Below are positions 3,649 to 35,810 of a DNA stretch of 35,810 nt, piece by piece. Source of the DNA: Legionella jamestowniensis (GTDB lineage Bacteria > Pseudomonadota > Gammaproteobacteria > Legionellales > Legionellaceae); contig NZ_LNYG01000013.1 in assembly GCF_001467745.1 (NCBI RefSeq), forward strand, positions 191,252-227,061. Direction: 5' to 3'. Position numbers and translations under genes: made by a program. Position 1 is the stretch's first letter, and each line of letters begins with the position of its first letter. Under the pieces are notes generated by a model. It made no database searches. It worked only from the letters and a program-made list of their open reading frames with translations, and had not been told where the DNA came from.

Positions 3649-5093
3649 CAATGGGTTTCAAAGTCAAATTTACATTCCTGCAAATTGATTATCCGTGTTT
3701 TCTTTAGCCATTTATTGCCTAACCATAAGAGTAAAAATAGAGGCAATCCGATATAGGAAATTATTAACCCATACCAATCAATATGGTTATTCATAAAAGC
3801 TGCATAATTTTGACCGCCAATAATAACCAGACATAACCCGAAAGCAAACAAAGGGCCGTAAGGATAGCCTTTGGCCAAATAAGGCAGTTGGTGCAGATCT
3901 TTTCCTTGAGAAATGTAGGCCTTTCGGAAACGATAATGACTTATCGCAATCCCCATCCAGGCAATTAAACCTGCAAGGCTACCAGCATTAAGCAGCCATA
4001 AATAGACAATCCCATTGCCGAATAAGGACGATAGGAAAGCCAGGAAGGAAATAGAACTGGTCACTAGTAAGGCCTGCATAGGCACACCGCGCTTATTCAC
4101 CTTGGTAAAAAGACGTGGTACCTGGCCTTCTTTTGCCATATGCCAAAACAGTCTACTTGCCACGTAAAGTCCTGAGTTTGCCGTGGACAGGATTGCAAGA
4201 AGCACAATTCCATTCATAAACATCGCAGCCAAGGCGGTATCATACTGCTTAAAAACCAGGGTAAAAGGACTCATTGCGATATTAGCATCGTTCAACTGTG
4301 CGGAAGTATAAGGAATTAAAAGACTAATAACGAAGAGGGATAGTATAAAAAAAAGTAAAATACGCCAAAAAACCAACTTAACCGCTTTACTTACATTCTG
4401 CTTGGGGTTTTGGCTTTCGCCCGCTGCAATACCTAACAACTCTGTTCCTTGAAACGAAAACCCTGCCACCATAAAAGCGCCGATGAAACCTAGTAAGCCT
4501 CCGTGAAAAGGCGCATCCCCTATTGTCCAGTATTTAAATCCCACCGGTTTATAACTTGTTACTCCTAAAATCATTGCAAAGCCACTAATAATAAATAAGA
4601 TAATGACCGTCACTTTAAGAAAAGAAAACCAGTATTCCGTTTCTCCAAAGACACGGGTTGATATAGCATTAAACCCAACAATTAGCGTCAAAAATAATCC
4701 ACACCACAACAAGGGTGGGCTGTCAGGAAACCAAAAGCGCATCACTAATGAGGTTGCTGAAATTTCAGAAGCGATGGTTACTGCCCAACTGTACCAATAG
4801 TTCCATCCCAATGCATAGCCTAACGAAGGATCAACAAATTTAGCCGCATAGACACAAAATGATCCCGTTGTTGGCATAAAAGCTGCCATCTCGCCTAAAC
4901 TGGTCATTAAATAATAAACAACGCAGCCCATAATGAGATAGGCAAGTAAGGTACCGCCTGGTCCCGCAAGTGAAAGCGCATTACCACTGGCCAAAAAAAT
5001 ACCGGTCCCAATTGAACCCCCGAGCGTAATCATGCTTAGCATCCGGGCATTCAATTTACGCTGCAACGAAAATTCTTGCGATATTTCGGACAT
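3648..5093 (-). CDS. Amino-acid permease, APC superfamily (AAT family, LysP/AroP-like)
   Basis: An inner-membrane amino-acid:proton symporter of 481 residues, the usual length for AAT permeases. Twelve hydrophobic segments can be traced. The first carries the family signature (MLSMITLGGSIGTGIFLASG, about residues 18-37), followed by the GPGG turn and the TSLGEMAAFMP motif at the end of helix 2. The sequence FSFQGTELLGIAAGESQNP near 215 is typical of AAT members. The substrate cannot be read from the sequence; a cationic or aromatic amino acid is likely by family. It is the last gene of a minus-strand operon, 43 bp after the Rieske oxygenase gene and two genes after the MFS transporter, so it may import the oxygenase substrate or a related compound (inference). 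Confidence 0.9.
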   Translation of the reverse strand: MSEISQEFSLQRKLNARMLSMITLGGSIGTGIFLASGNALSLAGPGGTLLAYLIMGCVVYYLMTSLGEMAAFMPTTGSFCVYAAKFVDPSLGYALGWNYWYSWAVTIASEISATSLVMRFWFPDSPPLLWCGLFLTLIVGFNAISTRVFGETEYWFSFLKVTVIILFIISGFAMILGVTSYKPVGFKYWTIGDAPFHGGLLGFIGAFMVAGFSFQGTELLGIAAGESQNPKQNVSKAVKLVFWRILLFFILSLFVISLLIPYTSAQLNDANIAMSPFTLVFKQYDTALAAMFMNGIVLLAILSTANSGLYVASRLFWHMAKEGQVPRLFTKVNKRGVPMQALLVTSSISFLAFLSSLFGNGIVYLWLLNAGSLAGLIAWMGIAISHYRFRKAYISQGKDLHQLPYLAKGYPYGPLFAFGLCLVIIGGQNYAAFMNNHIDWYGLIISYIGLPLFLLLWLGNKWLKKTRIINLQECKFDFETH

Positions 5094-5136
5094 TTCTTTC
5101 TTCCCTGAAAAAACCGTATCTAGGTTTGGATGTCAT

Positions 5137-6222
5137 TTAATCATTTAGAAATTCACACAATAAACGTTGGAAATGGTGTGTCCCCTGCTCTTTCGTAGGT
5201 GAAAATCGACCTGTGTCATAAAAGCGGGAACGAATACCGCGCTGCACTGATTCCACCACAGCTTCGTCTTCCCGCTCCACCTTATCAAGGTCGCCACCTG
5301 CTCCTTTTCCCAATTTGGTTTCATCCTGTACATAGGTTAAAAACGATACTTTAGTTAACTCAGGGCCAAGTGGTTTAACGACATTCACCGAACAACCCCA
5401 AGGATAAAAATTAAGCATCGTGTTGGGGAATATCCAATAATAGTAAGCAGCCACCTGCTTGCCATAATCTTGTGCATCCCCGGGTAAATTAAAACTTTCC
5501 TCGCCATGGTTGGCCAAAGCCAGTTGAAGGTTACAGTAACGGTACAATTCGGTCGTGTAGGTACTGCAGTCAATCACTTTTCTTAAGGAATGATGGACAA
5601 AGGGAATGTGTAAGGCTTCCAGGTAATTTTCACAGTATAATGCCCAATGCGCTTTCACCAGATAATCACGTGACCGATTGCTATCAAGTCGCATTTTTTC
5701 CATAGGAAACCAAAAAAGGCGTTCTTTAATCTCAGCAAACACGTCATGGAAGGGGATGCGCGGTGATAATGAGGCAAAAATAAAAGGATCAAGGCAGTCA
5801 AAAGGTATGCGGGGAAGATTATCTTTTTCGCTAGGAAAGTTTTCAGTTTTTTCAAACTCTGGCATATGCAAGAACTGGCCGCAGAGTGAGAATCGTCGTC
5901 CATGGTAGGCACATTTTATTTTATTGCCTGTGCACGGGGCGTCTACCAAAAGGTTGCCACGATGGGTACACACATTGCTGAAGCAATGCAACAGATTTTC
6001 TTCGTCACGCACAAACAACAGCGGCTCGTCCAAAAATCCAGGAAGTAATGTGGAAGGCACGAGCTGCCCACTTAGTCTTAGGGCTTCTGTACTTAAACAA
6101 AACTGCCAGGTTTGCGCAAATATTTTTTCTTTTGCGTGCTCATACCAATCGAGGGAAGTATAAAATTCAGAAGGGATAGTAGATGCTTTTTCAATATCGG
6201 GATCAACAAACAGTGATTTCAT
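5137..6222 (-). CDS. Rieske non-heme iron oxygenase, alpha subunit (361 aa)
   Basis: A Rieske-type oxygenase that hydroxylates or demethylates small organic substrates using electrons from a separate reductase, which is not in this window. The N-terminal Rieske domain has Cys85-x-His87 and Cys104-x2-His107 ligands for the 2Fe-2S cluster. The catalytic domain has the facial-triad pair His205-x4-His210 (ENYLEALHIPFVH), and the C-terminus (about 325-355: EDEAVVESVQRG followed by GRFSPTKEQGTHHF) is typical of the choline monooxygenase/GbcA/betaine-demethylase branch rather than of classical ring-hydroxylating dioxygenases. A near-consensus AGGAGG lies 4 nt before the ATG. The substrate is unknown; a quaternary ammonium compound is an inference from the subgroup. 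It is co-transcribed with the MFS gene upstream (37-bp gap) and the permease downstream. Confidence 0.88.
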   Translation of the reverse strand: MKSLFVDPDIEKASTIPSEFYTSLDWYEHAKEKIFAQTWQFCLSTEALRLSGQLVPSTLLPGFLDEPLLFVRDEENLLHCFSNVCTHRGNLLVDAPCTGNKIKCAYHGRRFSLCGQFLHMPEFEKTENFPSEKDNLPRIPFDCLDPFIFASLSPRIPFHDVFAEIKERLFWFPMEKMRLDSNRSRDYLVKAHWALYCENYLEALHIPFVHHSLRKVIDCSTYTTELYRYCNLQLALANHGEESFNLPGDAQDYGKQVAAYYYWIFPNTMLNFYPWGCSVNVVKPLGPELTKVSFLTYVQDETKLGKGAGGDLDKVEREDEAVVESVQRGIRSRFYDTGRFSPTKEQGTHHFQRLLCEFLND

Positions 6223-6259
6223 AATACCTCCTGTAAAACTATCCTAAAGGAGGCTTAAG

Positions 6260-7453
6260 CTATTCATTTTCTGAGTGGCTGTCAACTTTAACGGGAAACT
6301 TTCCAAAACGAAAAAATAAAATATAAAGTAAAACAAAAATAAATAAAAAAATGACGATGGCATAAATCATGGCATCAATACTGCGTGCAAAAGTCGCATT
6401 AATGGCATAAAAAACCATTAAAAGAGTGGAGCTAAACGCATTTCTAAACATATAGAATCCAGCAATTTTATTATGATCCAGGCAATTTTGGCTGATAATT
6501 TGGGAAATACCATAAGACCACGCTGAAGTAATGCCACCTAAAAGTGCCAATACAATGGATAGATAGATAGAGTTTGCATACAGCACAAAAAATAGCATAC
6601 TGGATAATGTAAGGCTAAAACAGATTGTTAAGCTTTTACGATTTGCATTGTTTTGGAACATCCGGCCTACAGACATACCCCCGAGTAAAGAACCTATCCC
6701 ACTTAAGGACAAAATCATCCCCACAAACCACTGGGGATGATTAAGTTTTAAAACAGGAATGATTAAAAAACTAATAAAATTAGTCCAAACTGTCGTTAAC
6801 GAAAACGTTAACAATAAAAGGATGGCTAAAGGGTGGATCTTAAATTCATTTAAACGAAAAACGGCATTACTTAAATTAACGTCAATACGGATATAGTTTT
6901 TATTTAATCGAGCCAAGGGTAATAAATAAAGGAGGATTATCAGTATTGCAAAGATTACAATCATTTCGCTGGCAATTACTTTAAACAGTAAACTGGCAAC
7001 CAGAGGTGATACAATATAACTGAGTGCTGTAGTAGCCAATCCAAGGCTTACGCCCTTCCCTCTTTTTGCTTCAGGCAACAGTAAAACAATCGATTTATCA
7101 AACAGACTGATTTCAGTTGAGCTCATAATGAATAACACGGTAATACTGAGAATAATCCCTATCAAATTTACAGGGTAGTGATTTATCAAAAGGGCAAGAA
7201 TTGCAAGCGTAATGGCTTGAATTAAAAGGACCGTGACAAGGAGTGACTTTATCTCTTTCTTATCCATAAGGCGCGTGATGAAAAATGCTGAAAATACCAT
7301 GGGTAAATTGATCAATATGCCTAGAATTGATAATTCAGCAATCGCAAAGCTTTGCTCAAAAAAGAGGAATAAGAGGGTAAATAAAACAGTTTTTATGCTC
7401 AATACATAAAAAGTTCTGATGGCCCAAATACTATAAAAAAGCGTTTCATTCAA
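6260..7453 (-). CDS. MFS transporter (397 aa)
   Basis: A 12-helix membrane protein of the major facilitator superfamily. Hydrophobic segments are spread over the whole length; the loop between helices 2 and 3 carries the basic motif-A-like RLMDKKEIK at about 62-70, and a longer polar loop in the middle separates the two six-helix halves. The start is a TTG codon at 7453. The next Met is far inside the first helices, and AGGAGG lies about 9 nt upstream of the TTG, so an unusual start codon is well supported. It is the first gene of the operon with the Rieske oxygenase and the amino-acid permease. Substrate and direction are unknown; export of a small molecule or uptake of an oxygenase substrate are both possible. 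Confidence 0.85.
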   Translation of the reverse strand: MNETLFYSIWAIRTFYVLSIKTVLFTLLFLFFEQSFAIAELSILGILINLPMVFSAFFITRLMDKKEIKSLLVTVLLIQAITLAILALLINHYPVNLIGIILSITVLFIMSSTEISLFDKSIVLLLPEAKRGKGVSLGLATTALSYIVSPLVASLLFKVIASEMIVIFAILIILLYLLPLARLNKNYIRIDVNLSNAVFRLNEFKIHPLAILLLLTFSLTTVWTNFISFLIIPVLKLNHPQWFVGMILSLSGIGSLLGGMSVGRMFQNNANRKSLTICFSLTLSSMLFFVLYANSIYLSIVLALLGGITSAWSYGISQIISQNCLDHNKIAGFYMFRNAFSSTLLMVFYAINATFARSIDAMIYAIVIFLFIFVLLYILFFRFGKFPVKVDSHSENE

Positions 7454-7600
7454 GCTCTAGTCCCTCCTATGGACTCTGCAGCATTCGTAGTTGTGGAGAG
7501 AAATTTAGATAAAAGATGCCTGCAAATACTTAGATTTTAGCTAAGATAATAAGTAATTGCCCAAAAACATTGAACTCTATTAGCGAATAAGTTGAAAAGC

Positions 7601-8396: not shown

Positions 8397-11300
8397 TTAC
8401 CTTCCCTGCACACCTAAACTGTTACCTAATCGTAGCTCAATTGTTATTTCTTCCAGGATATCATTCAAAAAGTCATCAGCAGTTTTAAGTTCAATTAACT
8501 CATGGTTATAAATCAGTGCTAACAGATCCCCTTTTCCACTGCTTCGCACCATTAAATTTAATTTTTCAGGATTATTATAATTCCAAAGGGAAACTTGCTT
8601 TTGCTGATTAACAATGTTTTCAAGAATATAATCAGCCGAGTAAAAAGGAGGGGTATCCGCTAAAGTCGTATAATGGTTAAAAATAAACTCAGGTTGAATA
8701 TAATGCCCCTGTTGTATATCGTTTAGTAACAAGGGATTTTGAAAACGTTGTATAATATCAAGAATCATTATCTGCACTTTTTGCAGTTGGCTGGCAAAAT
8801 CAACGTTTAACTCCACAGGAATAACTACAGGGATATTATCAGCATAATATCCAATCATATCATCGGACTTAAGCTTGCCCCTATTCGACTTCACAAGGCT
8901 TACATACACTTCTTTATTATTGAAGGTTTTTGCAATGGCGCGACTGAACATATAAAAATAAAACACATATTTTGAAATTTTGTTTTTACGGCATACATTC
9001 TCAATTTTCATGGAATTTTCTTTGGAAATTTTTCTATAAATAAAACCACCAATATAATTTTTTTTAGCTGCCTTTATAGTCTGCACACCACTAAATTTTC
9101 GCAATTCATCCCAATATCGGTTGTAATCCTCCAGGTATGCCTGATAATCACTTTGCGAAGCGGCATAACATTCCAAATAAGTTTCATCTTGTGGTTGTTC
9201 AGCCGTTGGATGCCTATAGGCCTTTTGCAATTCTTTTAAAAATAACTCCGAAGAAATCCCGTCACATATAAGGTGATGAAGCCTGATTAGCAAGACAGGA
9301 CGACTTTGAGAATGATAGATAAGATACCACTTTAGTAAAGGGGGCTTATTAATCGCTATAGGATCAGTTAATAATTCCCCTATTGTGTTATACAGCTCAT
9401 TTGTTTTTATTATTTTTAAAGGCGGCACTTCTTTTTGTTTTGATAGAATCAATTGCAACACGTTTTGATCATCAAAATAAGTTCTTAACGCAGGATGTTT
9501 ACGGACACAAATACCCATTGCCTCATTCAAGCGATCGATATCAATATTCACATCGACCTCTTTACAAATAGGAATATAGAATGGCAATCCATCAGGGTGT
9601 CCTTGATAGGATTGCCACAAATTTTGTTGTAAAAAAGAAGCATCTTGCTTATAAAAATTAGATATACTTGTGATGTCTTCCGTTCTTAACTCCTTACTTC
9701 TTTTTTCAATGGCTGCAATCCAGCGATTCAATAGCGCTTCAGCATTCTTTTTAGATACTTTATCGGTTCTATATTTTAATGAAAATTTTAGTGCCTCCTT
9801 GCCTAATAACACTTTGAATGACAGCGTTCGTGGTTCATCCCCCCATAAATAGCTTTGGACATTGCCACTTTTTACCGTAGCCACTTTTAAACTGGTATTC
9901 GCTAAATCCAATTCAGAACTTCTCTGAAAATCAAACGAAACCATAGGCGGTTGGTACCCCATGTCTTTAACCATTTCCATCCGTAAATATTGCTTATCCA
10001 TAAGTGCTAATAGTTGTTGCTGAAGAACTTTTGTCTGTTTGAGAATATTGTCCTCTTTTCTCGCAATAACGATGACATCATTTGTTGTATCGCCAAATAC
10101 GGATGAAAAATGTCCATCTTCCCGTCCTGAAAAAAAGACTACAACCCCCTGCTGTTCTCTGTTAAATTGTTCAAAAAGAATCTCGAATAAATTTGCCAAT
10201 AAATAATTGCTGAGAGAGAGTTTATTTTGTTCAATAGGCTTAATCGCTGAATGCAATGTTTCTAATGGCAACGTAGAAGACACAACCTCAGCCTTTTTTT
10301 CTATGTTCTGAAGGGAACTCTCCCAAAGACGTAGGTCATGTCGAACGTAGTGAGACATCTCCTGATACAAAGGAGATCCCTCACTACGTTCGGGATGACG
10401 GTCGTCTTTTTTGATGTTTTCCACAGTGTGGTTGGTATACTCAGAAGGAACATCCAGAGGGATACCCTTTAATGAATTCATCCAATAGTCACGTAAATTG
10501 GTATCCAATTGATAATGAATGGTATTCCATTGCCAATTCACGTATTGATAATATTGCTTCGTGGATTCTATAGGTTGATTTTCATAATCGAGAATTACTT
10601 CACCGATGAAAGCATTTACAGTATTTCCATCACTAATCAAATGATGGAAAACGAGCAGCCACCGGTATTCGTCTTCAGCGACTTTTATTAACTTTGTACG
10701 TATGAGCGGTGGCATTTTTAAATCAAAAGGCGCGGATAAAAACTCGCTTACTTCTTTTTCATTATAATGGGAACCTATCTCAAGATTAATCACTGCTTGT
10801 TGATGATAATGCTGGCTTACCTGGCCTAAAACCTCATGAAATCCAACTTGGAAAATATCATGGCGTTCGCCCACTTTCTTCACAGAATTTTTAAATTCCT
10901 CTACGTCTAAAGATCCTTTAATAGCCAATTCCATAGGGATTTGATAAGCCCGGTAATCTTGGCAATGTTTAAGAAAATTCCAAATTTCCTGTTGTTGTAG
11001 GGAAAGAGGCGTACTGTTGGGATGAATTTCTTTTGCAATGACGGTCTTTTTTGAAAGCGCTGTTGAATTAATTTTTTGCGCGAGCTCTTCAGCCGTAGAA
11101 TACCTAAAAATGTCTTTTGAAGTAACGACATTTCCTCGACATTTAGTGTTAATTTTATAAACAACTTGAGCGGCTAGAATAGAGTCCATGCCTGCTTCAA
11201 ACCAATTGTCACTTACTGATAATTCATCTGTTGTAAGTTTTAGGATTTGTTGGACGATTTTTAAAATATCCGCCGCGACACATTGGGACTCCAGGACGTT

Positions 11301-14300
11301 TTCTTCATCAGACTCTACAACAGTGCTTTGCGCTGAATGCCCCTCTTCTTCTATCGCATTGATATCACCATTAAATTGGGCAATGATAATATTATTTTCT
11401 TTTTCCTGCGCCCCTAAAATCAATTTAATAATTTCAGGATCTAAAGGTTCAATGCCTTGCATCGCTAGATACTCAGTCAGTTTTTCTTCATTGTTTTTAA
11501 ACAAACCAGTCTTTGTAACTGGCCCTAAGATTAAATTAAAACTTGGTTTACCTTCTGCCTTTCGCTGCTCACCTAAGGCGTCGAGGAAGGCATTGGCTGC
11601 TGCATAAGCGGCTTGGCCTTGATTGCCTAAAACACCTGAGATGGATGAAATACAAATGAATTCTTTTAAGGGATGATTAGCCGTTGCCAAGTGCAAATGT
11701 AGAGCACCCAGTGCTTTACCAGCAATAATAGCCTTGATCTCCTCATTGCTGGTTGCAAGCCATGGTTTATCAATTGTAATCCCTGCAGCATGGATAATTA
11801 CCCCTAAAGGAGGCAATTCATGTTCAATTTCAGCAATTAATTGGGTAACCTGTGCCGATTGACTAACATCACATTGTTGATAATGAACCTGCGCTTCTCC
11901 CTTCTGTAAAAAGGATTGAATAGACGTTGACCAAGCTGCAGGGGTTTTCTTACGACCCACAGCAACAATGTGTTTTACCCCTAATTCCAACAGGGTTTCA
12001 ATTAATATTTGTCCAATGCCGCCACAGGCTCCTGTAACCAGGTAGGTATTTTCTGGGTAAACTTGCCGGTTTCCCGTCAATAAATTTGGCTCGAGTGGGA
12101 GAATTTGACGTCTATAATAGGCCTGATTTTCATACCTTAGTACCCAATGCCCATTGATTGTATTTTGCAGGCTATGCACCCACTGAGGATTATCGTTTAG
12201 GAAATCCCCTTCCAAATACCGTACCTGCCAGACAGGGTATTCTTGTTTAATTGATTTTAATAAAGCAAGCGAGGCACGCCCGGTTTTTGAAATTGCATCC
12301 CGAGGTTGATTATTTAAAAAAACAAAAGGTTTTTCTGGGGTATTTTCAAGTAAGAATCTCGTTACTAACCCTATGTTATTAAACTCTGTTTCAACCTCAT
12401 CGTCGTTCGCATTACAAAAATAAACCAGGGCTTCAGCTTCGTTAATTTTCTGCAAAAACTCAGGTTTGACGAAGCGGTCCGGAGTGATAAAATTTATGGT
12501 TTTATAGTGGTTTCTTAAAATCAGTAACAAGGGTGCTTCAGAAGAAATAGCAGGACTAATAATGGTCAATTCTTTATTTTGATAATTACCTGTCGCAGGC
12601 TTCTCTGTCAATTGACGCCAACCAAGCTTATACAAATTTTTCCTCCAGGAATAGCTTAAATTTGCAGGTTTATTTTTAGGGGTTGGCAGCCAGTATTCTT
12701 TACCAAAAAACGGATATTTAGGAAGTGTATATTTGGTCACATCTGAAAGGGGGTTTAAAAGATTCCACTGGAGATCTACCCCTTTTAAATAAAGGATACC
12801 CAAGCTTTCGCACAAAGAGGGCCAAGGCTCCTTCGGATCGCGAATAGAAGGTACAATCAAAAAATTACATGCATCTTGAGCTTGGGCAGTTAAAACTGCT
12901 TTAGGGCCAATTTCCTGCACCAAGGTTATATTTTTTTCTGCCAAAGTCTGCAAACCTTTGTGGAATTCGACTGTTTTGGTCAGATGTTCGCACCAATAAG
13001 AGGCATCAATTGTATGGGATAATTCAACGCCGGTCACATTGGAAATGATAGGGATCTTTGCAGGTTTATAATCAATCGATTGTGCCTGTTGATAAAATTT
13101 ATCAACAATGGGAATCATTAATGAAGAATGAAACGCATGCGAAGTTGCAATTTTTTTACAACGCAGCTCCTGTTGCAGGCAATAATTTTGCAAAGCGTCT
13201 ATCGCTTCTTTAGTTCCTGAAACAACGGTTTGCTGCGCACTGTTTTTAACTGAAATGGTTAATTCGGGAAAATGAATTAACAAGGTTTCAACCTCATTTG
13301 CCGATGCTGCAATGGCAAGCATTGCCCCATTGTCTGGCAATGTATTAATCAGTTGTGCCCTTAAACAAACTAATTGCAAAGCCTCTCGTAAAGACATTAC
13401 TTCCGCCACACAGGCAGCCACATATTCACCGAGGCTATGACCAAGCAATAGCGCAGGCTGAACTCCTAACGAAAGAAACCATTTCGCCAGGGCATATTCA
13501 AAAACAAATAGGGCAGGTTGGGCAAAGTGTGTATGATTGATATCTACCTGAACCGGTGTATGGAGTAAAACATCTCGTAATTTATAGTCCAATAAAGGTT
13601 CTGTGATAGCACAACACTCATCGATGATTGCCGCAAAAGCAGGCAATGTATGATAGAGGACGGCAGCAACGTCAGGTTCAAGGCAGCCCTGCCCGGTAAA
13701 TAACCAGGCTACCTTATTTTTTTCATTTGCTTTTCCCTGTTGCCACTCCTTTGTAGTCAATGCCTGTGCCCAATCCTGGCAATTTTTCGCGACAATAAAA
13801 GCTCGATGAGAAAAATGGGTCCTTTCTGTCAGCGATTTCTGGCTAATAGCAGCAAAATCACAACCAGTGAGGGATTGACTGTAATCACAATAGGTTTGTA
13901 GGTAGTGTTTCAGCGTTTCCTCATCGCGTGCGCTAACAACCCAAAGGTAATGGGAGCGAGATTGTTTTTCTTCAGTGGCGGTTTCCTCTCTATTAAAATT
14001 ACCGAGGATAATATGCGCATTGGTTCCGCTAAAACCAAATGAACTAACGCCTGCATAACGATATTTCTCCTGCCAGGGCAATAATTGAGCAGGAACTTGC
14101 ATCCCTTCTTGCTGGGTAATTTTTGGATTAAATTGTTTTAGGTGCAGGTGGCCTGGGATTTGACCGTATTGAGTAGCAAGTACCGTTTTTATAAAACCGG
14201 CTACCCCTGCTGCTGCTTCTAAATGACCAATACGCGTTTTTAAAGAGGTGATATAAAGCGGCTTTTTACGTGCGCTGGCATAAACACGGCGTATACCTTC

Positions 14301-17294
14301 CCATTCAATAGGATCACCTAAGGATGTTCCTGTGCCATGGGCTTCCACATGGGTGATCTGATCAGGCGTTAGATTTGCCGATTTAATAGCAGATTCCATG
14401 ACTTCAATTTGAGCCCCCACGTTAGGGGCGGTTAAGCCATTACTGGCTCCATCCTGATTGACGCTGCTGCCATGAATAACCGCGTAAATTTTATTATTAT
14501 CGCGCAATGCATCGGCTAAACGCTTTAAAATAACAATACCGCACCCTTCACCCCGGACATAACCATCAGCTTCCGCATCAAAGGTGCTGCAACGATTTTT
14601 AGGCGACAACATGGCGCTTTTGCAGAAAATAATATTTCCTTCAGGTGATAGAATAAGATTAACCCCGCCGGCAATGGCTAGATGGCAATCCCTGTCTTGT
14701 AAAGCACGGCTAGCCTGATGAATGCTGACCAATGAAGAAGAACAGGCCGTATCAATGGCCATACACGGACCATGGGTTCCTAAAAAATAGGCTATTCGGC
14801 CTGCAGCCGTTGCAAAGCTTGTTCCCGTTGCCTGGTAAGTGTTTAATTCCTCCAGCGGGACTTGTTTTTGAATTAGCGCATCATAATCGTGAGTACTTAT
14901 CCCTAAGTATATTCCTGTTTTACTGTCTTTAAGCTGTTGCGGAACAATTCCGGCATCTTCAAGGGCATTCCAGGTCACCATTAACGCCAGACGTTGTTGG
15001 GGATCAAGATACTCCGCCTCTCTTGGCGAAATATTAAAAAATTTAGCATCAAACCGTTTCACGTCGGCTAAAAAACTACCAGCCGTGGTATACATCATCC
15101 CTTTTTTATCCGGATTTGGATCATAATATTGTCGAATATCCCAACGTTCCTGAGGTATTGGTCGAATACTATCGCTTTCGGTCTGCAAAAACCTCCAAAA
15201 CGCTTCTATTCCAATCAAATTGGATTGTTCATCACAAGGAATTCGGCAATCCATTCCAATTACCGCAATGGGTTCATAAGTTTGCTGCGGCTGGCAAGAG
15301 GTCACTTGCAAGTGATTAGTAAGGCGTTGGGTTAACGCATGAATGTTTGGAAACTCCCAGGCCATTAAAGGATCTAAATCCTGCTGAATATATTGCTCAA
15401 GCTCACTCATCATAGAGACAAGTTTTACCGAGCTAAGCCCGTATTCCGAAAAGGGGCGATGTTCGTCAATGTGGTTATAATCAATTTGAGTATTGATAGA
15501 CAACCATTGCTTCAACCAATGAGAAACGACGTCTTGTTCACTTTGCGTAAAATCAATGGTCTGCGTTTTTGGAATGTCTTTGCTAGCTTGTTTTAATCGG
15601 GCTATAATGGAAAACTCTTCATTCAAATAAGCTTGCTTGCAAGCATTCCTTTGAACTTTTCCACTGCTTGTTTTTAGTAAACGCTTAGGTGGAATAAGCA
15701 CAATATCCGTAGGGATGATATCTTGGGCTTGAAATACATTATCTTGAATTTTTGCGAGAATGTCTTTATAGACTGCAGCATCAAGGTGATTTTTTACTTC
15801 AGCAACAATGATGCATTCTTCAGATATTTCCCCTGGAATTGAAAATGCAGCAGCTCCGTCAATAATCAAATGACTATCAGAAGTATAACAAGCTTTTTCA
15901 ACGTCCTGAGGGTAAATATTGCGTCCATTAATAATCATTAAATCCTTAAGGCGTCCAGAAATTATTAAGTAACCTTCGTCATCAATAAACGCTAAATCTC
16001 CGGTACGCAAAAAAGGCCCTTCACCATTGGCGGTGAATGCATTAAATATTGAAGCTGTTTTTTCTTCATTACGATAATAGCCTTTGGCAATACAAGCTCC
16101 CTGAATCCAAATTTCGCCTACGCATCGCTTAGGCAACTTCTTATTAGTATCCGGATCAACAATCCTTAAAGTGAATGGACTGGCAACCTTGCCGCAACGC
16201 ACAACTTCGATGGCATTCCCTGTTTGATCAGGTACCGCCCTCCCTAAAGCAAGTTCATCTTTATTAATCAACAACGTTCTCGAGTCTGCAGACTCATCAA
16301 CATGCACAGAAATGACTAAGGTCGCCTCAGCCATTCCATAGCCCGGTCTCACCGCACCAGAGCGTAACCCATAAGCACTTAAAACTTTTTCAACGCGTTT
16401 AATCGTTTCTGCTTTTACGGGTTCTGCACCATTAATTAAATAATTTACATGCGACAAATCCAACTCAGGAATAGATTTTTGCTGTTCCAAAGAGGTGATG
16501 GCCAAATCATAAGAAAAATTAGGTGCCATTGTGTAAGTACATTTTTCTTCACTAATTTTTTGCAACCAAAAGAAAGGTTTTTTTAGAAAAGTCAGTGGCG
16601 CCATAAATACACAGGTTCCACCAGCATAAAGAGGTAATAAGGTGTTCCCTATTAACCCCATATCATGAAAAATAGGCAACCAGGATACACAAGTATTTAC
16701 TGACTCCATCCCAACATAGTCAATGGATAATTCTAAATTACGAACAATGTTTTGTTGTGTAACCACTACTCCTTTGGGTGCTCCGGTAGAACCAGAGGTG
16801 TATTGCAAAAAAGCAATATCCTCAGGAGCAGCTGTTGGAATAATTAAGTTTGATTTTTCCAACTCTAACTCATCAACACAAATTAGTGGCGCAGTGGGAA
16901 ACTCAAAGTGATTAATTTCGCAATACTTTTTTATCTTTGCAGTGGTTAGTACTATTTTAGCGTGAGAATCTTCAACAATTTTTAATAAACGCTGTAAATG
17001 ACGCGTTTGTCGAGGTGGATATGCGGTTACGGCAATATTGTTAGAATGAAGTATTGCTAAAAAAGAAACGATATAATCAAGACTTGATTCAAACAGTAAT
17101 AAAATAGGTTGCTGCACCTCTTTATTGTTTAAAGTAAAAATCGTGGTTGCTAACGTGTCAATCTTTTCGGTCAATTGCCGGTATGTTAATTCTTGAGAGT
17201 TTTTAAAGTTACCTTCTAAAAATTTTAGAGCTATTTTATTAGGATTACTCTTGGCATGATGATATATTTTCTGTAATAAAAGTTCATTAACCAT
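8397..17294 (-). CDS. FAAL-PKS-NRPS hybrid megasynthase (2965 aa): FAAL-ACP-KS-AT-KR-ACP-C-C
   Basis: Domain order (residues from the ATG at 17294): fatty acyl-AMP ligase about 1-570, with TAYPPR and TSGSTGAPKG at about 166; ACP with phosphopantetheine Ser621 (EYGLSS); ketosynthase about 673-1100 with Cys851 (DTACSSS), His986 and His1024; acyltransferase about 1190-1500 with GHSLGEY (Ser1287) and HAFHS, a malonyl-CoA signature; ketoreductase with TGACGGIG at 1754 and Ser1884/Tyr1897; second ACP Ser2038 (GMDS); condensation domain 1 with HHLISDG at 2217; condensation domain 2 with HHLICDG at 2673. No DH, ER, adenylation or thioesterase domain is present. Expected chemistry: activation of a fatty acid, one malonyl extension, reduction to a 3-hydroxyacyl thioester, then transfer by C domains to an amine or alcohol acceptor (inference). 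GGGAG 5 nt before the ATG supports this start over the TTG at 17306. It lies 37 bp downstream of the phosphotransferase gene, same strand. Confidence 0.93.
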   Translation of the reverse strand: MVNELLLQKIYHHAKSNPNKIALKFLEGNFKNSQELTYRQLTEKIDTLATTIFTLNNKEVQQPILLLFESSLDYIVSFLAILHSNNIAVTAYPPRQTRHLQRLLKIVEDSHAKIVLTTAKIKKYCEINHFEFPTAPLICVDELELEKSNLIIPTAAPEDIAFLQYTSGSTGAPKGVVVTQQNIVRNLELSIDYVGMESVNTCVSWLPIFHDMGLIGNTLLPLYAGGTCVFMAPLTFLKKPFFWLQKISEEKCTYTMAPNFSYDLAITSLEQQKSIPELDLSHVNYLINGAEPVKAETIKRVEKVLSAYGLRSGAVRPGYGMAEATLVISVHVDESADSRTLLINKDELALGRAVPDQTGNAIEVVRCGKVASPFTLRIVDPDTNKKLPKRCVGEIWIQGACIAKGYYRNEEKTASIFNAFTANGEGPFLRTGDLAFIDDEGYLIISGRLKDLMIINGRNIYPQDVEKACYTSDSHLIIDGAAAFSIPGEISEECIIVAEVKNHLDAAVYKDILAKIQDNVFQAQDIIPTDIVLIPPKRLLKTSSGKVQRNACKQAYLNEEFSIIARLKQASKDIPKTQTIDFTQSEQDVVSHWLKQWLSINTQIDYNHIDEHRPFSEYGLSSVKLVSMMSELEQYIQQDLDPLMAWEFPNIHALTQRLTNHLQVTSCQPQQTYEPIAVIGMDCRIPCDEQSNLIGIEAFWRFLQTESDSIRPIPQERWDIRQYYDPNPDKKGMMYTTAGSFLADVKRFDAKFFNISPREAEYLDPQQRLALMVTWNALEDAGIVPQQLKDSKTGIYLGISTHDYDALIQKQVPLEELNTYQATGTSFATAAGRIAYFLGTHGPCMAIDTACSSSLVSIHQASRALQDRDCHLAIAGGVNLILSPEGNIIFCKSAMLSPKNRCSTFDAEADGYVRGEGCGIVILKRLADALRDNNKIYAVIHGSSVNQDGASNGLTAPNVGAQIEVMESAIKSANLTPDQITHVEAHGTGTSLGDPIEWEGIRRVYASARKKPLYITSLKTRIGHLEAAAGVAGFIKTVLATQYGQIPGHLHLKQFNPKITQQEGMQVPAQLLPWQEKYRYAGVSSFGFSGTNAHIILGNFNREETATEEKQSRSHYLWVVSARDEETLKHYLQTYCDYSQSLTGCDFAAISQKSLTERTHFSHRAFIVAKNCQDWAQALTTKEWQQGKANEKNKVAWLFTGQGCLEPDVAAVLYHTLPAFAAIIDECCAITEPLLDYKLRDVLLHTPVQVDINHTHFAQPALFVFEYALAKWFLSLGVQPALLLGHSLGEYVAACVAEVMSLREALQLVCLRAQLINTLPDNGAMLAIAASANEVETLLIHFPELTISVKNSAQQTVVSGTKEAIDALQNYCLQQELRCKKIATSHAFHSSLMIPIVDKFYQQAQSIDYKPAKIPIISNVTGVELSHTIDASYWCEHLTKTVEFHKGLQTLAEKNITLVQEIGPKAVLTAQAQDACNFLIVPSIRDPKEPWPSLCESLGILYLKGVDLQWNLLNPLSDVTKYTLPKYPFFGKEYWLPTPKNKPANLSYSWRKNLYKLGWRQLTEKPATGNYQNKELTIISPAISSEAPLLLILRNHYKTINFITPDRFVKPEFLQKINEAEALVYFCNANDDEVETEFNNIGLVTRFLLENTPEKPFVFLNNQPRDAISKTGRASLALLKSIKQEYPVWQVRYLEGDFLNDNPQWVHSLQNTINGHWVLRYENQAYYRRQILPLEPNLLTGNRQVYPENTYLVTGACGGIGQILIETLLELGVKHIVAVGRKKTPAAWSTSIQSFLQKGEAQVHYQQCDVSQSAQVTQLIAEIEHELPPLGVIIHAAGITIDKPWLATSNEEIKAIIAGKALGALHLHLATANHPLKEFICISSISGVLGNQGQAAYAAANAFLDALGEQRKAEGKPSFNLILGPVTKTGLFKNNEEKLTEYLAMQGIEPLDPEIIKLILGAQEKENNIIIAQFNGDINAIEEEGHSAQSTVVESDEENVLESQCVAADILKIVQQILKLTTDELSVSDNWFEAGMDSILAAQVVYKINTKCRGNVVTSKDIFRYSTAEELAQKINSTALSKKTVIAKEIHPNSTPLSLQQQEIWNFLKHCQDYRAYQIPMELAIKGSLDVEEFKNSVKKVGERHDIFQVGFHEVLGQVSQHYHQQAVINLEIGSHYNEKEVSEFLSAPFDLKMPPLIRTKLIKVAEDEYRWLLVFHHLISDGNTVNAFIGEVILDYENQPIESTKQYYQYVNWQWNTIHYQLDTNLRDYWMNSLKGIPLDVPSEYTNHTVENIKKDDRHPERSEGSPLYQEMSHYVRHDLRLWESSLQNIEKKAEVVSSTLPLETLHSAIKPIEQNKLSLSNYLLANLFEILFEQFNREQQGVVVFFSGREDGHFSSVFGDTTNDVIVIARKEDNILKQTKVLQQQLLALMDKQYLRMEMVKDMGYQPPMVSFDFQRSSELDLANTSLKVATVKSGNVQSYLWGDEPRTLSFKVLLGKEALKFSLKYRTDKVSKKNAEALLNRWIAAIEKRSKELRTEDITSISNFYKQDASFLQQNLWQSYQGHPDGLPFYIPICKEVDVNIDIDRLNEAMGICVRKHPALRTYFDDQNVLQLILSKQKEVPPLKIIKTNELYNTIGELLTDPIAINKPPLLKWYLIYHSQSRPVLLIRLHHLICDGISSELFLKELQKAYRHPTAEQPQDETYLECYAASQSDYQAYLEDYNRYWDELRKFSGVQTIKAAKKNYIGGFIYRKISKENSMKIENVCRKNKISKYVFYFYMFSRAIAKTFNNKEVYVSLVKSNRGKLKSDDMIGYYADNIPVVIPVELNVDFASQLQKVQIMILDIIQRFQNPLLLNDIQQGHYIQPEFIFNHYTTLADTPPFYSADYILENIVNQQKQVSLWNYNNPEKLNLMVRSSGKGDLLALIYNHELIELKTADDFLNDILEEITIELRLGNSLGVQGR
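10335..10399. repeat. 65-bp palindromic interspersed repeat inserted in frame in the megasynthase gene
   Basis: The arms GTCATGTCGAACGTAGTGAG and CTCACTACGTTCGGGATGAC are inverted repeats with 18 of 20 positions paired; inside them ATCTCCT and AGGAGAT form a second stem. The element is read through by the megasynthase and supplies about 23 residues including HPERSEGSPLYQEM, located in the variable linker of condensation domain 1 (about residues 2299-2321), 75 residues after HHLISDG. The peptide HPERSEGS is, to my knowledge, a recurrent translation of REP-like palindromes in many bacterial genomes, comparable in behaviour to Rickettsia palindromic elements. Confidence 0.85.
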
Positions 17295-17331
17295 AGTCAC
17301 TCCCAATACCCTCGGTGAAATAATTTTAGGA

Positions 17332-33812: not shown

Positions 33813-33833
33813 TATCCACAGAATCTGTGGATA
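33813..33833. promoter_or_regulatory. Palindromic pair of DnaA-box-like sequences
   Basis: TATCCACAGA-A-TCTGTGGATA is a perfect 10+10 inverted repeat. It contains TTATCCACA (33812-33820), identical to the consensus DnaA box, and on the opposite arm TGTGGATAG, one mismatch from its complement. It lies 113 bp upstream of the lolC start. A perfect TGTCGCGACA palindrome follows at 33843-33852. Confidence 0.6.
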
Positions 33834-33935
33834 GTAAGTCGGTGTCGCGACATGTTTTGTTCACAAAATAATCGATAAATCCTAATCTAACACCTTAACG
33901 CCTGGCTAAAAACAGAGTGAACCCATCCATCTCAA

Positions 33936-34325
33936 TCACGTCAATTGTATGCTCATTTTTTCGATAATATTTGCATTATTTGCTGCAATATTATTCACCA
34001 CATCAACTTTTGGACGTACCTCGCCTGCAAGACAACGAGTCAGCTGCCTTAAATTGAATCCAAATACAGCAGCGTAACCCACGCTTTTGATGGTTTCATC
34101 AGATTTCATACGGCTTCTACCCAATTGACCGCTATGTCTCGCAAAAGGTCTGCCTATCCACCAATGTTTTTTGTCGGTATGCTGTAAATCAGGCAATACT
34201 AATTGTAGCATCTCATCCCAGGTGAATTTCTGAGCCAGCTTAATCAGGCGATGGTTGTTGTCGACTGTAATCATAATAGAGCCACCTGAAACCTGCTCAT
34301 CAAAACCATTTACATCCAAAATCAT
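33936..34325 (-). pseudogene. Internally deleted IS transposase
   Basis: A 129-codon frame that joins two ends of a DDE transposase. Residues 18-60 (NNHRLIKLAQKFTWDEMLQL and KKHWWIGRP) match the N-terminus of IS5/IS1182-type transposases that begin with a short helical DNA-binding region. The sequence then jumps to GRSRMKSDETIKSVGYAAVFGFNLRQLTRC, which looks like the C-terminal tail of the same kind of enzyme. The central catalytic core of roughly 250 residues, with the DDE residues, is missing. The reading frame survives the deletion, but the product cannot be active alone. The exact IS family is uncertain. Terminal inverted repeats were not identified. Confidence 0.65.
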
Positions 34326-34412
34326 TATTTACTCACATCCTCTTTATCGCACTGTTCTTTGTTTTGCCACCAATTTGGCACATCCCCCACTGAAAAACAT
34401 CAGATTCCACCA

Positions 34413-34690
34413 CTAGATGGATAAGTGCTTTTTGAGCATGCCTTTTCTTAGGCGATACGTCTGGTAATGACTTAAAATCCCAATATAAGAGTTGATAGAA
34501 TATAAAAAGGCCATTTGCTCTTCTTTCGTGGGTTTATGGTCTTTGACAACCAAATTATGCCTTATGATGGCGTTATAAAAATTCCCTTTGATGCGACGAC
34601 CGGCATGGATACAGTGTGGTTTTGAGCATCACTTCAAGAAACAGGACGCCACCAGCTGGTAACTGTCCTTGTAAGCCGGTAACTCTGTCT
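34413..34690 (-). pseudogene. C-terminal remnant of a DGR-type reverse transcriptase, frameshifted
   Basis: On the minus strand, 34628-34413 is open for 71 codons and ends in TAG. It reads KPHCIHAGRRIKGNFYNAI, then after about 20 residues INSYIGILSHYQTYRLRKGM. The NSYLGLLxHxxTYxLR pattern and a preceding RRxxGNF segment are what I know from the C-terminal end of diversity-generating-retroelement reverse transcriptases. Just upstream, in a frame shifted by one base, GGVLFLEVMLK supplies the expected FLG-vikP segment, so a frameshift near 34612-34632 interrupts the gene. The catalytic YxDD region and everything before it are gone. It lies directly downstream of a DUF1566 variable-protein gene on the same strand, the usual place for a DGR reverse transcriptase. 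Confidence 0.6.
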
Positions 34691-34736
34691 AGAAAGCCAT
34701 TCACCAAAATCCAACTCATTCGTTTTTTAAAGAATT

Positions 34737-34755
34737 GAGGCAGCGAAACTGCCTC
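34737..34755. promoter_or_regulatory. Hairpin 21 nt beyond the variable-protein stop codon
   Basis: GAGGCAG and CTGCCTC form a perfect 7-bp stem with a CGAAA loop (TTTCG on the coding strand). No T tract follows on either strand, which speaks against an intrinsic terminator. Hairpins or cruciforms with GNRA-like loops immediately after the variable repeat are required for retrohoming in some DGRs (Bordetella phage type), and the position here fits. Confidence 0.55.
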
Positions 34756-34776
34756 GAAAGAAAAGGGATAAAGGGG

Positions 34777-35810
34777 CTAAGGAGTAAAAGTCCGAACGCA
34801 CCTAACCCGAAGACTGTTGTCCTTGCTTTCGCCGGCCTGGGAGCCATTTGAGAAGTTCTGGCGCCAGGCGAGGTTTGTAGGAATGCTGGAAGACTCGGTA
34901 GAACTCCAGTAGATGAAATTGGTAAAATTACCTAAATTATTCGTATGCAGCGTTATATATAAGTTGGGGTTGGTAGTGCCACAACCAGCATTAGAACCCA
35001 TACCTACAAATCGTCCCAACTCGCAAATCGCTGGCATGAACCAGTCAGTAAAGCCCTGGTCATTCTTGTTTAGACAGGCTTGCGCTGCCGGATATTGGGG
35101 GGTTGCAAGGGCATTAGTATTGCTAAATCCATCTGTGATACTGTCCGCTGCTGTGTCATCGAATACTGTCGACCACTGAAGATTTGGCTCATCCGTCAAT
35201 GCGGCCACTTTCCCACCGATACTTCCGGTATTGGAGGTGGAGTCATCAACAGAAAATAAAAACCCGCCTTGATAGATACAGCCGTATCCTAATATCAGGA
35301 CATTGATATCTGTGGAAGGCGCATTATCAGCACTGACCGTGACAACAGTGGGCACGGGTTCAGTTCCTGGTGATGTGGTGCAGGCATTAGCACCGTTATC
35401 GGGGCTAGCCGTACTACCCGGGGTGATGGTAATGTCGCAGGTGGAGCCCGCATTGAGTGTACCCATACAGGTATTATTGGTTATTAAGGTGCCAGTTGGA
35501 AATCCGGAAGTACTGACCTGTACGTTGTTTGCGGATATTGAACCTGTATTTTCTATGCGGATGATGCGTGGATTGCCTGTCAATGCAGGGTCGGCTCCTG
35601 GGCTATTAATTGACAGCGCCAGGTTTTGACTGAGAGGAGACAGTGTTGCCTGGCCAAAGGTCACCGCTACGGTATGATTAGCCTGGATATTGTTCAGCTG
35701 AAAGGTAGTACCGCCATTTTGCACCACATTGCCATCCAGCAACCACTGATTGACCCCGAAACCGGTATTGGGTGTTGCCGTAAACGTCAGGCTGCTGCCA
35801 GCATTAACTC
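34777..35810 (-). CDS. DUF1566/C-lectin-like variable surface protein, DGR target type (partial, 5' end outside window)
   Basis: The frame is open from the right edge of the window to the TAG at 34777 (344 codons visible). The visible N-terminal part is a beta-rich InlB/bacterial-repeat module (GSSLTFTATPNTGFGVNQWL). A second beta-sandwich like the choice-of-anchor/ASH type follows (IRIENTGSISANNVQVS, NTCMGTLNAGSTCDITITPG). The C-terminal about 165 residues are a DUF1566 domain: GGFLFSVDD, WFMPAICELGRF, IYWSSTESSS, AWRQNFSNGSQ and a terminal RVRCVR. This domain has the formylglycine-enzyme/C-lectin fold used as the variable target of DGRs, with the variable repeat at exactly this C-terminus. 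It is probably exported and surface-exposed. Downstream lie a hairpin and a reverse-transcriptase remnant. Confidence 0.85.
   Translation of the reverse strand, partial: VNAGSSLTFTATPNTGFGVNQWLLDGNVVQNGGTTFQLNNIQANHTVAVTFGQATLSPLSQNLALSINSPGADPALTGNPRIIRIENTGSISANNVQVSTSGFPTGTLITNNTCMGTLNAGSTCDITITPGSTASPDNGANACTTSPGTEPVPTVVTVSADNAPSTDINVLILGYGCIYQGGFLFSVDDSTSNTGSIGGKVAALTDEPNLQWSTVFDDTAADSITDGFSNTNALATPQYPAAQACLNKNDQGFTDWFMPAICELGRFVGMGSNAGCGTTNPNLYITLHTNNLGNFTNFIYWSSTESSSIPTNLAWRQNFSNGSQAGESKDNSLRVRCVRTFTP

Follow-up and report, generated by a model that had tools for sequence, protein, structure and literature searches.

Probable remains of a transposon carrying a diversity-generating retroelement in a Legionella genome

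The window, the whole stretch of DNA analyzed here, comprises 35,810 nucleotides of Legionella jamestowniensis (G000:C13:191252-227061, from a 3.34-Mb Legionellaceae genome in 13 contigs). It holds the remains of a diversity-generating retroelement (DGR): the end of a target gene with a variable repeat (VR), a hairpin and a piece of a reverse transcriptase (RT). In all probability these remains are what is left of an insertion-sequence-type transposon, now dead and immobile, that carried a complete DGR as cargo. An earlier note on this DNA had recognized the VR, the hairpin and the RT remnant as a decayed DGR, and full-length relatives, the comparison of the VR with template repeats (TRs) and the deletion map all agree with it. 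The parts it described are real, but the remnant is longer than its span, reaching as far as a terminal inverted repeat at 33838, and the transposon of which the DGR was the cargo was missed.

The intact element in relatives

The order of parts in the relatives is left terminal inverted repeat, outer-membrane barrel gene, secreted target with VR, hairpin, avd, TR, RT, DDE-type transposase and right terminal inverted repeat, over 5.1-7.5 kb when later insertions are excluded. In genome G009 three sites carry the element, each in a copy of 7,502 bp; two of these copies are identical and the third has 2 substitutions. All start with GTCGGTGTCGCTAAATG and end with CATTTCGCGACAGCGAC, and each has its own perfect 6-bp duplication (GAGATA, CCCTTA and GAGTTA). 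Their contents are, in order, an IS481 transposase gene, a barrel-type outer-membrane gene (OMP_b-brl, below the cut-off), a target with a TIG domain, the hairpin, avd, the TR, the RT and the transposase. The RT (399 residues, RVT_1, YVDD) comes after an Avd gene (bAvd, E 7.3e-21; DivGenRetAVD) and the TR. Its best NCBIfam match is a group II intron model, at 96.4 bits far under the cut-off of 300, and the assignment to a DGR is made because Avd, TR and VR are present. An RT profile found a single match in the PDB at E<=1e-10, 8ub7 ("Reverse transcriptase"), which we take to be the DGR RT of a Bordetella phage. The predicted transposase of 486 residues lies 18 nt behind the RT, inside the inverted repeats, and its NCBIfam matches are all below cut-offs (transpos_IS5_1, 155 bits against 275; transpos_ISNCY_1, 108.9 bits against 325). 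A composite transposon built on the IS481 gene was considered and dropped, since the bounding repeats are common to elements without IS481 in their list of open reading frames (G072).

Change falls mainly at adenines when each TR is set against its own VR: in nine relatives 15-24 adenines are changed against 1-4 other bases, of 140-157 (for example, 22 of 34 adenines plus 4 others in G083, and 21 of 45 plus 4 others in G058). Having an RT, an Avd and a TR/VR pair with adenine-specific differences, G009, G072 and the other relatives have the make-up of DGRs.

The copies in G072 can be read as an internal clock. Five copies with a 6,308-bp core and 22-bp perfect ends occupy five sites (L100-L104), and outside the VR they are identical except for two insertions (3.8 kb in L100, 2.4 kb in L102) and one 7-bp repeat array. 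Compared with L103, L101 and L104 have 22 differences each over the whole length, all in core positions 2616-2715; L100 differs at 2 VR positions and L102 at none; L104 has an extra 28-bp difference from the 7-bp repeat (5 vs 9 units). Set against the TR that all five copies share, each of the four distinct VRs is changed at 18-24 of the 45 adenines and at 2 of the 112 other bases, these 2 being the same throughout, so that every VR difference among the copies falls on a TR adenine. No point change in around 6.2 kb outside the VR thus stands against up to 22 adenine-site changes inside it. The 7-bp repeat itself, ATTGCTG, lies upstream of the barrel gene (L104:12331-12393, with 9 units vs 5 in the other four copies) and is a possible phase-variation tract.

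Both ends and their flanks could be read in 13 elements, which have terminal inverted repeats (perfect over 22 bp in G072, agreeing at 15 of 17 positions in G009), and perfect 6-bp duplications flank all eight complete elements outside G072 (three in G009, and one each in G083, G058, G077, G036 and G029). A 1.9-kb group II intron with a 500-residue RT/maturase stands at one end of all five G072 copies; beyond it, 5 bp match at L103, L100 and L104, the sixth base being taken by the intron. The opposite-facing L101 and L102 have exchanged flanks (GAGAT, AAGTT), as recombination (inversion) between two copies would leave them. The motif TATCCACA, within one mismatch, lies beside an end at 10 of the 16 sites seen, a raw count with no shuffled background. 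With terminal inverted repeats, target-site duplications and a transposase inside the repeats, the relatives have the make-up of insertion-sequence-type transposons. In G077, two successive left ends (L107:2629 and 4750) have GAGTTA before each and a partial second barrel gene between them, a nested or tandem partial copy.

A plainer account would place a decayed DGR beside an unrelated insertion sequence, with a transposase that is not its carrier. DGR loci of other bacteria are often strewn with transposons, according to the accessible part of PMC10907252, and a related transposase does exist alone, in a 1,702-bp insertion sequence of G126 with the same ends. This account is nevertheless very unlikely: the inverted repeats of the 13 elements enclose DGR and transposase together, the perfect duplications at the outer ends of 8 of them contradict an unrelated neighbour, and whole units stand at three and five sites in G009 and G072.

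The copy in the window

The 71-residue open frame at 34416-34628 (minus strand), in which the earlier note had seen the signature of a DGR RT, aligns at 84-88% identity (E 6.3e-37 to 3.4e-39) with RT genes in three further genomes out of the 21 analyzed from the genus (G009 in three places, G011 and G021), and the remnant to which it belongs is the C-terminus of a DGR RT of around 400 residues. The matched RTs sit with avd, TR and VR, and a group II intron maturase, set beforehand as the refuting outcome, was not what was found. The fragment gave nothing useful in Pfam, PHROGs, plasmids or phages (phages best E 5), and the whole RT and transposase had no plasmid match at E 1e-60. Aligned by blastn with the G009 element, the window maps base by base to positions 3807-4085, then 5625-6125, then 7199-7502, ending at 33838, with two deletions between (Table 1). 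The 129-residue frame left of the transposase has no Pfam match. The DGR remains are thus predicted to be part of a larger unit, a dead transposon copy with its right end at 33838.

Table 1. Features of the transposon copy in the window, by position (strand "." where no strand applies).
Feature	Position	Strand	Details
Target-site duplication by right end	33832..33837	.	TTACTA in element orientation; from the sequence
Right terminal inverted repeat	33838..33854	-	GTCGGTGTCGCGACATG read inward, 0 mismatches to family pattern GTCGNTGTCGCNANATG; end-to-end alignment with relatives' right ends
Transposase remnant	33936..34325	-	N-terminal 61 and C-terminal ~66 residues joined in a 129-residue frame, middle deleted
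Deletion 2 junction	34141..34144	.	~1.07 kb of transposase lost (G009 element 6126-7198; blastn)
DGR RT remnant, residues 301-399 of 399	34347..34643	-	One TGA and one TAG in frame; E 1.9e-53 and 6.3e-51
Deletion 1 junction	34646..34650	.	~1.54 kb lost: most of avd, TR, 300 RT residues (G009 element 4086-5624; blastn)
avd start, ~50 bp	34651..34699	-	Reading frame no longer open; alignment to G009 element over avd start
DNA hairpin	34737..34755	-	GAGGCAG-TTTCG-CTGCCTC, 7-bp stem, 5-nt loop; 21 nt past target stop
Target gene, 3' part, 343 codons, intact	34777..35808	-	Runs off window; InlB-like repeat (below cut-off) and Lcl_C domain with VR
Variable repeat (VR)	34785..34927	-	Aligned to relatives' TRs

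The hairpin is where the earlier note had put it, with a loop that reads CGAAA on the plus strand. Its folding energy is unexceptional (z -1.30; 24 of 200 shuffles fold equally well), and an Rfam scan of the window gave no match at gathering scores. The same stem recurs at the same position after other VR genes: among 20 copies examined the anchor could be placed in 14, with the stem present in 11 and missing in 3.

The target frame ends in YWSSTE...RVRCVRTFTP and matches Lcl_C in Pfam (E 7.8e-12), in keeping with the DUF1566-type target that had been proposed. Its VR was compared with nine TRs, all from relatives, and the p values are uncorrected. The best is the TR of G021, with mismatches at 17 of 44 adenines and 11 of 99 other bases (p 2.4e-4), followed by those of G009 (17/44 and 14/99, p 0.0014), G072 (17/45 and 18/112, p 0.0038) and G058 (17/45 and 19/112, p 0.0057). 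For G077, G011, G036 and G034 the alignments span just 54-91 nt (p 0.032-0.12), and for G083 13 nt (p 1). The mismatches of the window VR to relatives' TRs are enriched at adenines, as in a DGR repeat, and the resemblance is the opposite of the refuting outcome that had been named, a C-terminal region unlike any TR. When other genomes' VRs are the reference, the adenine excess is gone (against the G021 VR, 3 of 20 adenines and 29 of 123 others). A sharper adenine bias is seen in the orphan VR of G003 against the G021 TR (21 of 44 adenines, 4 of 104 others).

Substitution rates at nonsynonymous (dN) and synonymous (dS) sites were compared by segment. Against the G003 target, dN/dS is 0.16 for residues 1-170, 0.48 for residues 171-294 and 2.4 for the VR, with a dS of 0.14; against the G072 target the same segments give 0.14, 0.21 and 1.9, with a VR dS of 0.15. 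The body of the target looks to be under purifying selection, and the low dS and high dN of the VR form the pattern expected from retrohoming off a conserved TR. Might the variable-looking end be ordinary DUF1566/Lcl_C family divergence, and the RT piece a chance neighbour? The window genome has six Lcl_C places in total, including Lcl_C genes without VR similarity, as such divergence would have it. The idea is hardly credible, however, given a VR with dS 0.14-0.15 and dN 0.29-0.35 vs a body with dS 0.28-0.82 and dN 0.04-0.12, and given remnants of avd, RT and transposase that are colinear and in DGR order. As to the C-type-lectin fold of DGR variable domains, the window's domain has the Lcl_C match but no PDB sequence match at E<=0.1, and its structure model is too weak to use (mean predicted local distance difference test score 44).

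Little else of a DGR is left in the genome. It has no PF00078 match at E<=1, and for an RT profile built from 12 relatives this remnant is the sole place at E<=10. A genome-wide search with the VR found no TR in cis or elsewhere; it turned up two further regions like the VR at E below 1e-20, each of them a target copy in a more advanced state of decay. The genome's third copy, at C13:1591122, keeps VR, hairpin and an avd piece. These searches agree with the earlier note, which saw no TR and no complete RT, and, there being no avd, TR or working RT, its claim that cis activity has been lost holds; its suggestion that the VR depends on a DGR elsewhere finds no support in this genome, where no other RT was found. 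With the C-terminal 99 residues of an RT, two stops within them and no other RT match, the copy is a DGR remnant and not a working DGR.

If a DGR that escaped the searches, or one gained now and then, acted in trans, the window VR would not be frozen. This is an unlikely alternative that still has points in its favour: VR and hairpin are kept, several VRs coexist with identical TRs in G072, and in G003, G020 and G008, which have no RT match, VR genes exist as orphans. Against it stand the single RT match in a genome rated 100% complete and, at 11 of 99 non-adenine positions, departures from the closest of the TRs compared, which suggest long drift. The target, its frame kept open, now probably serves as a fixed surface protein whose variable face is frozen.

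The left half of the copy is complicated by the assembly. Inside the target gene the window gives way to a scaffold gap of ten Ns (G000:C13:227062-227071), the first N being the base after the window, and left of the window a left end, a barrel-gene remnant and the target N-terminus follow across two 10-N gaps. The scaffold joins the right half to a left end that lacks the counterpart of TTACTA, which lies instead at the left end of the C7 contig's copy (L017:7388-7393), and G008 has an empty site upstream of lolC, both sides of which align to C7-left plus window-right. From the shared TTACTA and the empty site it follows that C7-left and window-right would be the ends of one insertion, separated by recombination or by the scaffolder. 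This suggests that the scaffold gap joins halves of two different insertions, or that recombination did so.

Elsewhere in the window, 8397-17306 on the minus strand encodes a 2,969-residue hybrid polyketide/peptide synthase with AMP-binding, ketosynthase (KS), acyltransferase (AT), ketoreductase (KR), carrier and condensation domains.

Spread and proposed history

Among 143 genomes of the family, the RT query (E<=1e-40) matches 19, the transposase (E<=1e-60) 22 and the right end (E<=0.001) 23. At 18 of the 22 places with a near-full-length RT, the transposase comes directly after it (decayed in G058, cut by a contig end in G037). Conversely, 18 of the 20 near-full-length transposases at >=66% identity follow an RT; the others are those of G126, which is solo, and G128, whose upstream side is cut by a contig end and which is not counted as solo. 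The G126 insertion sequence (L277) has a 67% identical transposase and flanks, GGCTTA and AGGTTA, that agree in 4 of 6 positions, and its contig also carries a ParA-like gene. One reading of the relationship is that such a solo insertion sequence gained a DGR, the direction being hypothetical. Outside the family set, among the best 80 of 569 relatives, RT loci had this transposase at one place (Legionella sp. 2055-AUS-E); other transposases were not looked for. At the sensitivity used and for those best 80 of 569, the RT-transposase unit looks confined to Legionellaceae.

The transposase would carry the entire unit to new sites, often TATCCACA...TGTGGATA palindromes between genes. The RT would then copy the TR RNA, making errors at adenines, and by mutagenic retrohoming the copy would end up in the VR of the same or a sister copy. 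In this way paralogous surface proteins that differ in their binding faces could accumulate in a single genome. In the window genome the unit would have inserted upstream of lolC, and two internal deletions would then have taken out the TR, avd/RT and the transposase core. It is somewhat more probable than the contrary that Legionellaceae carry a self-spreading family of DGR transposons in which each jump plants a target along with the machinery to rewrite it, so that a genome builds an individually diversified repertoire of surface proteins (five copies and four variants in G072), and in which loss of RT and transposase leaves a fixed, selected variant, the window being one such fossil. Copies may edit each other's VRs because their TRs are identical.

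Several points weigh against the interpretation of the window as a dead DGR transposon. Movement and mutation are both inferred from sequence, and neither has been observed. Four of the 22 RT loci have no adjoining transposase (G034, G139 and G094; in G108 the contig ends). The duplication of the window copy is unmatched within the scaffold (TACCTT vs TTACTA), and its left half lies beyond assembly gaps. The copy has no surviving TR of its own for comparison, and the adenine excess is moderate, with 11-14 of 99 non-adenine positions also mismatched (G021 and G009 TRs) and p values of 0.0002-0.006 with four full-length TR alignments, 0.03-0.12 with the four of 54-91 nt and 1 with the 13-nt one.

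Comparison with known systems

DGRs are usually treated as single resident loci, and patchy phylogeny has been the basis for guesses at how they move. Where a unit has defined ends, duplicates its target site and exists in near-identical copies, mobility can be read off the sequence itself. Such a unit also suggests a way for bacteria to derive a whole family of variable surface proteins from one diversifier, and what is left once the diversifier is gone. The DGR of Legionella pneumophila with the target ldtA is said, in work by Arambula in 2013, to sit in a genomic island.

Loose links between DGRs and transposons were known before. The accessible text of PMC3521204 speaks of DGRs "hitch-hiking" on transposons and gives a Vibrio Tn7 region and a Shewanella plasmid as examples, and that of PMC10907252 associates Thiohalocapsa DGRs with transposons and cites transposon-linked transfer of DGRs between Gammaproteobacteria. 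A description of a compact, multicopy DGR transposon was not found in the literature searched, including the accessible parts of PMC3521204, PMC10907252, PMC8144416, PMC8867640, PMC12875486 and PMC10680173; subscription papers were mostly outside the search, and one may be in print elsewhere. Within these bounds, such a transposon with copy-by-copy diversification is apparently new.

With DGRs such as those of Bordetella phage BPP-1 and L. pneumophila, the family described here shares the C-terminal VR of the target, the hairpin, avd, TR, RT and adenine-specific differences; what sets it apart is that these lie within an element of insertion-sequence type that brings its own transposase and occurs in several copies. 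The transposon-associated DGRs of Vibrio, Shewanella and Thiohalocapsa resemble it, as far as the accessible accounts go, in hitch-hiking mobility, in the duplication and decay of loci and in VR genes left without an RT, whereas no compact unit with its own inverted repeats, target duplications and near-identical copies is described for them in those parts of PMC3521204 and PMC10907252. Insertion sequences of the IS5/ISNCY type are similar in their transposase (below cut-offs) and in the solo 1,702-bp relative of G126 with the same ends, but the element here is 5.1-7.5 kb long and carries a DGR together with an outer-membrane protein gene.
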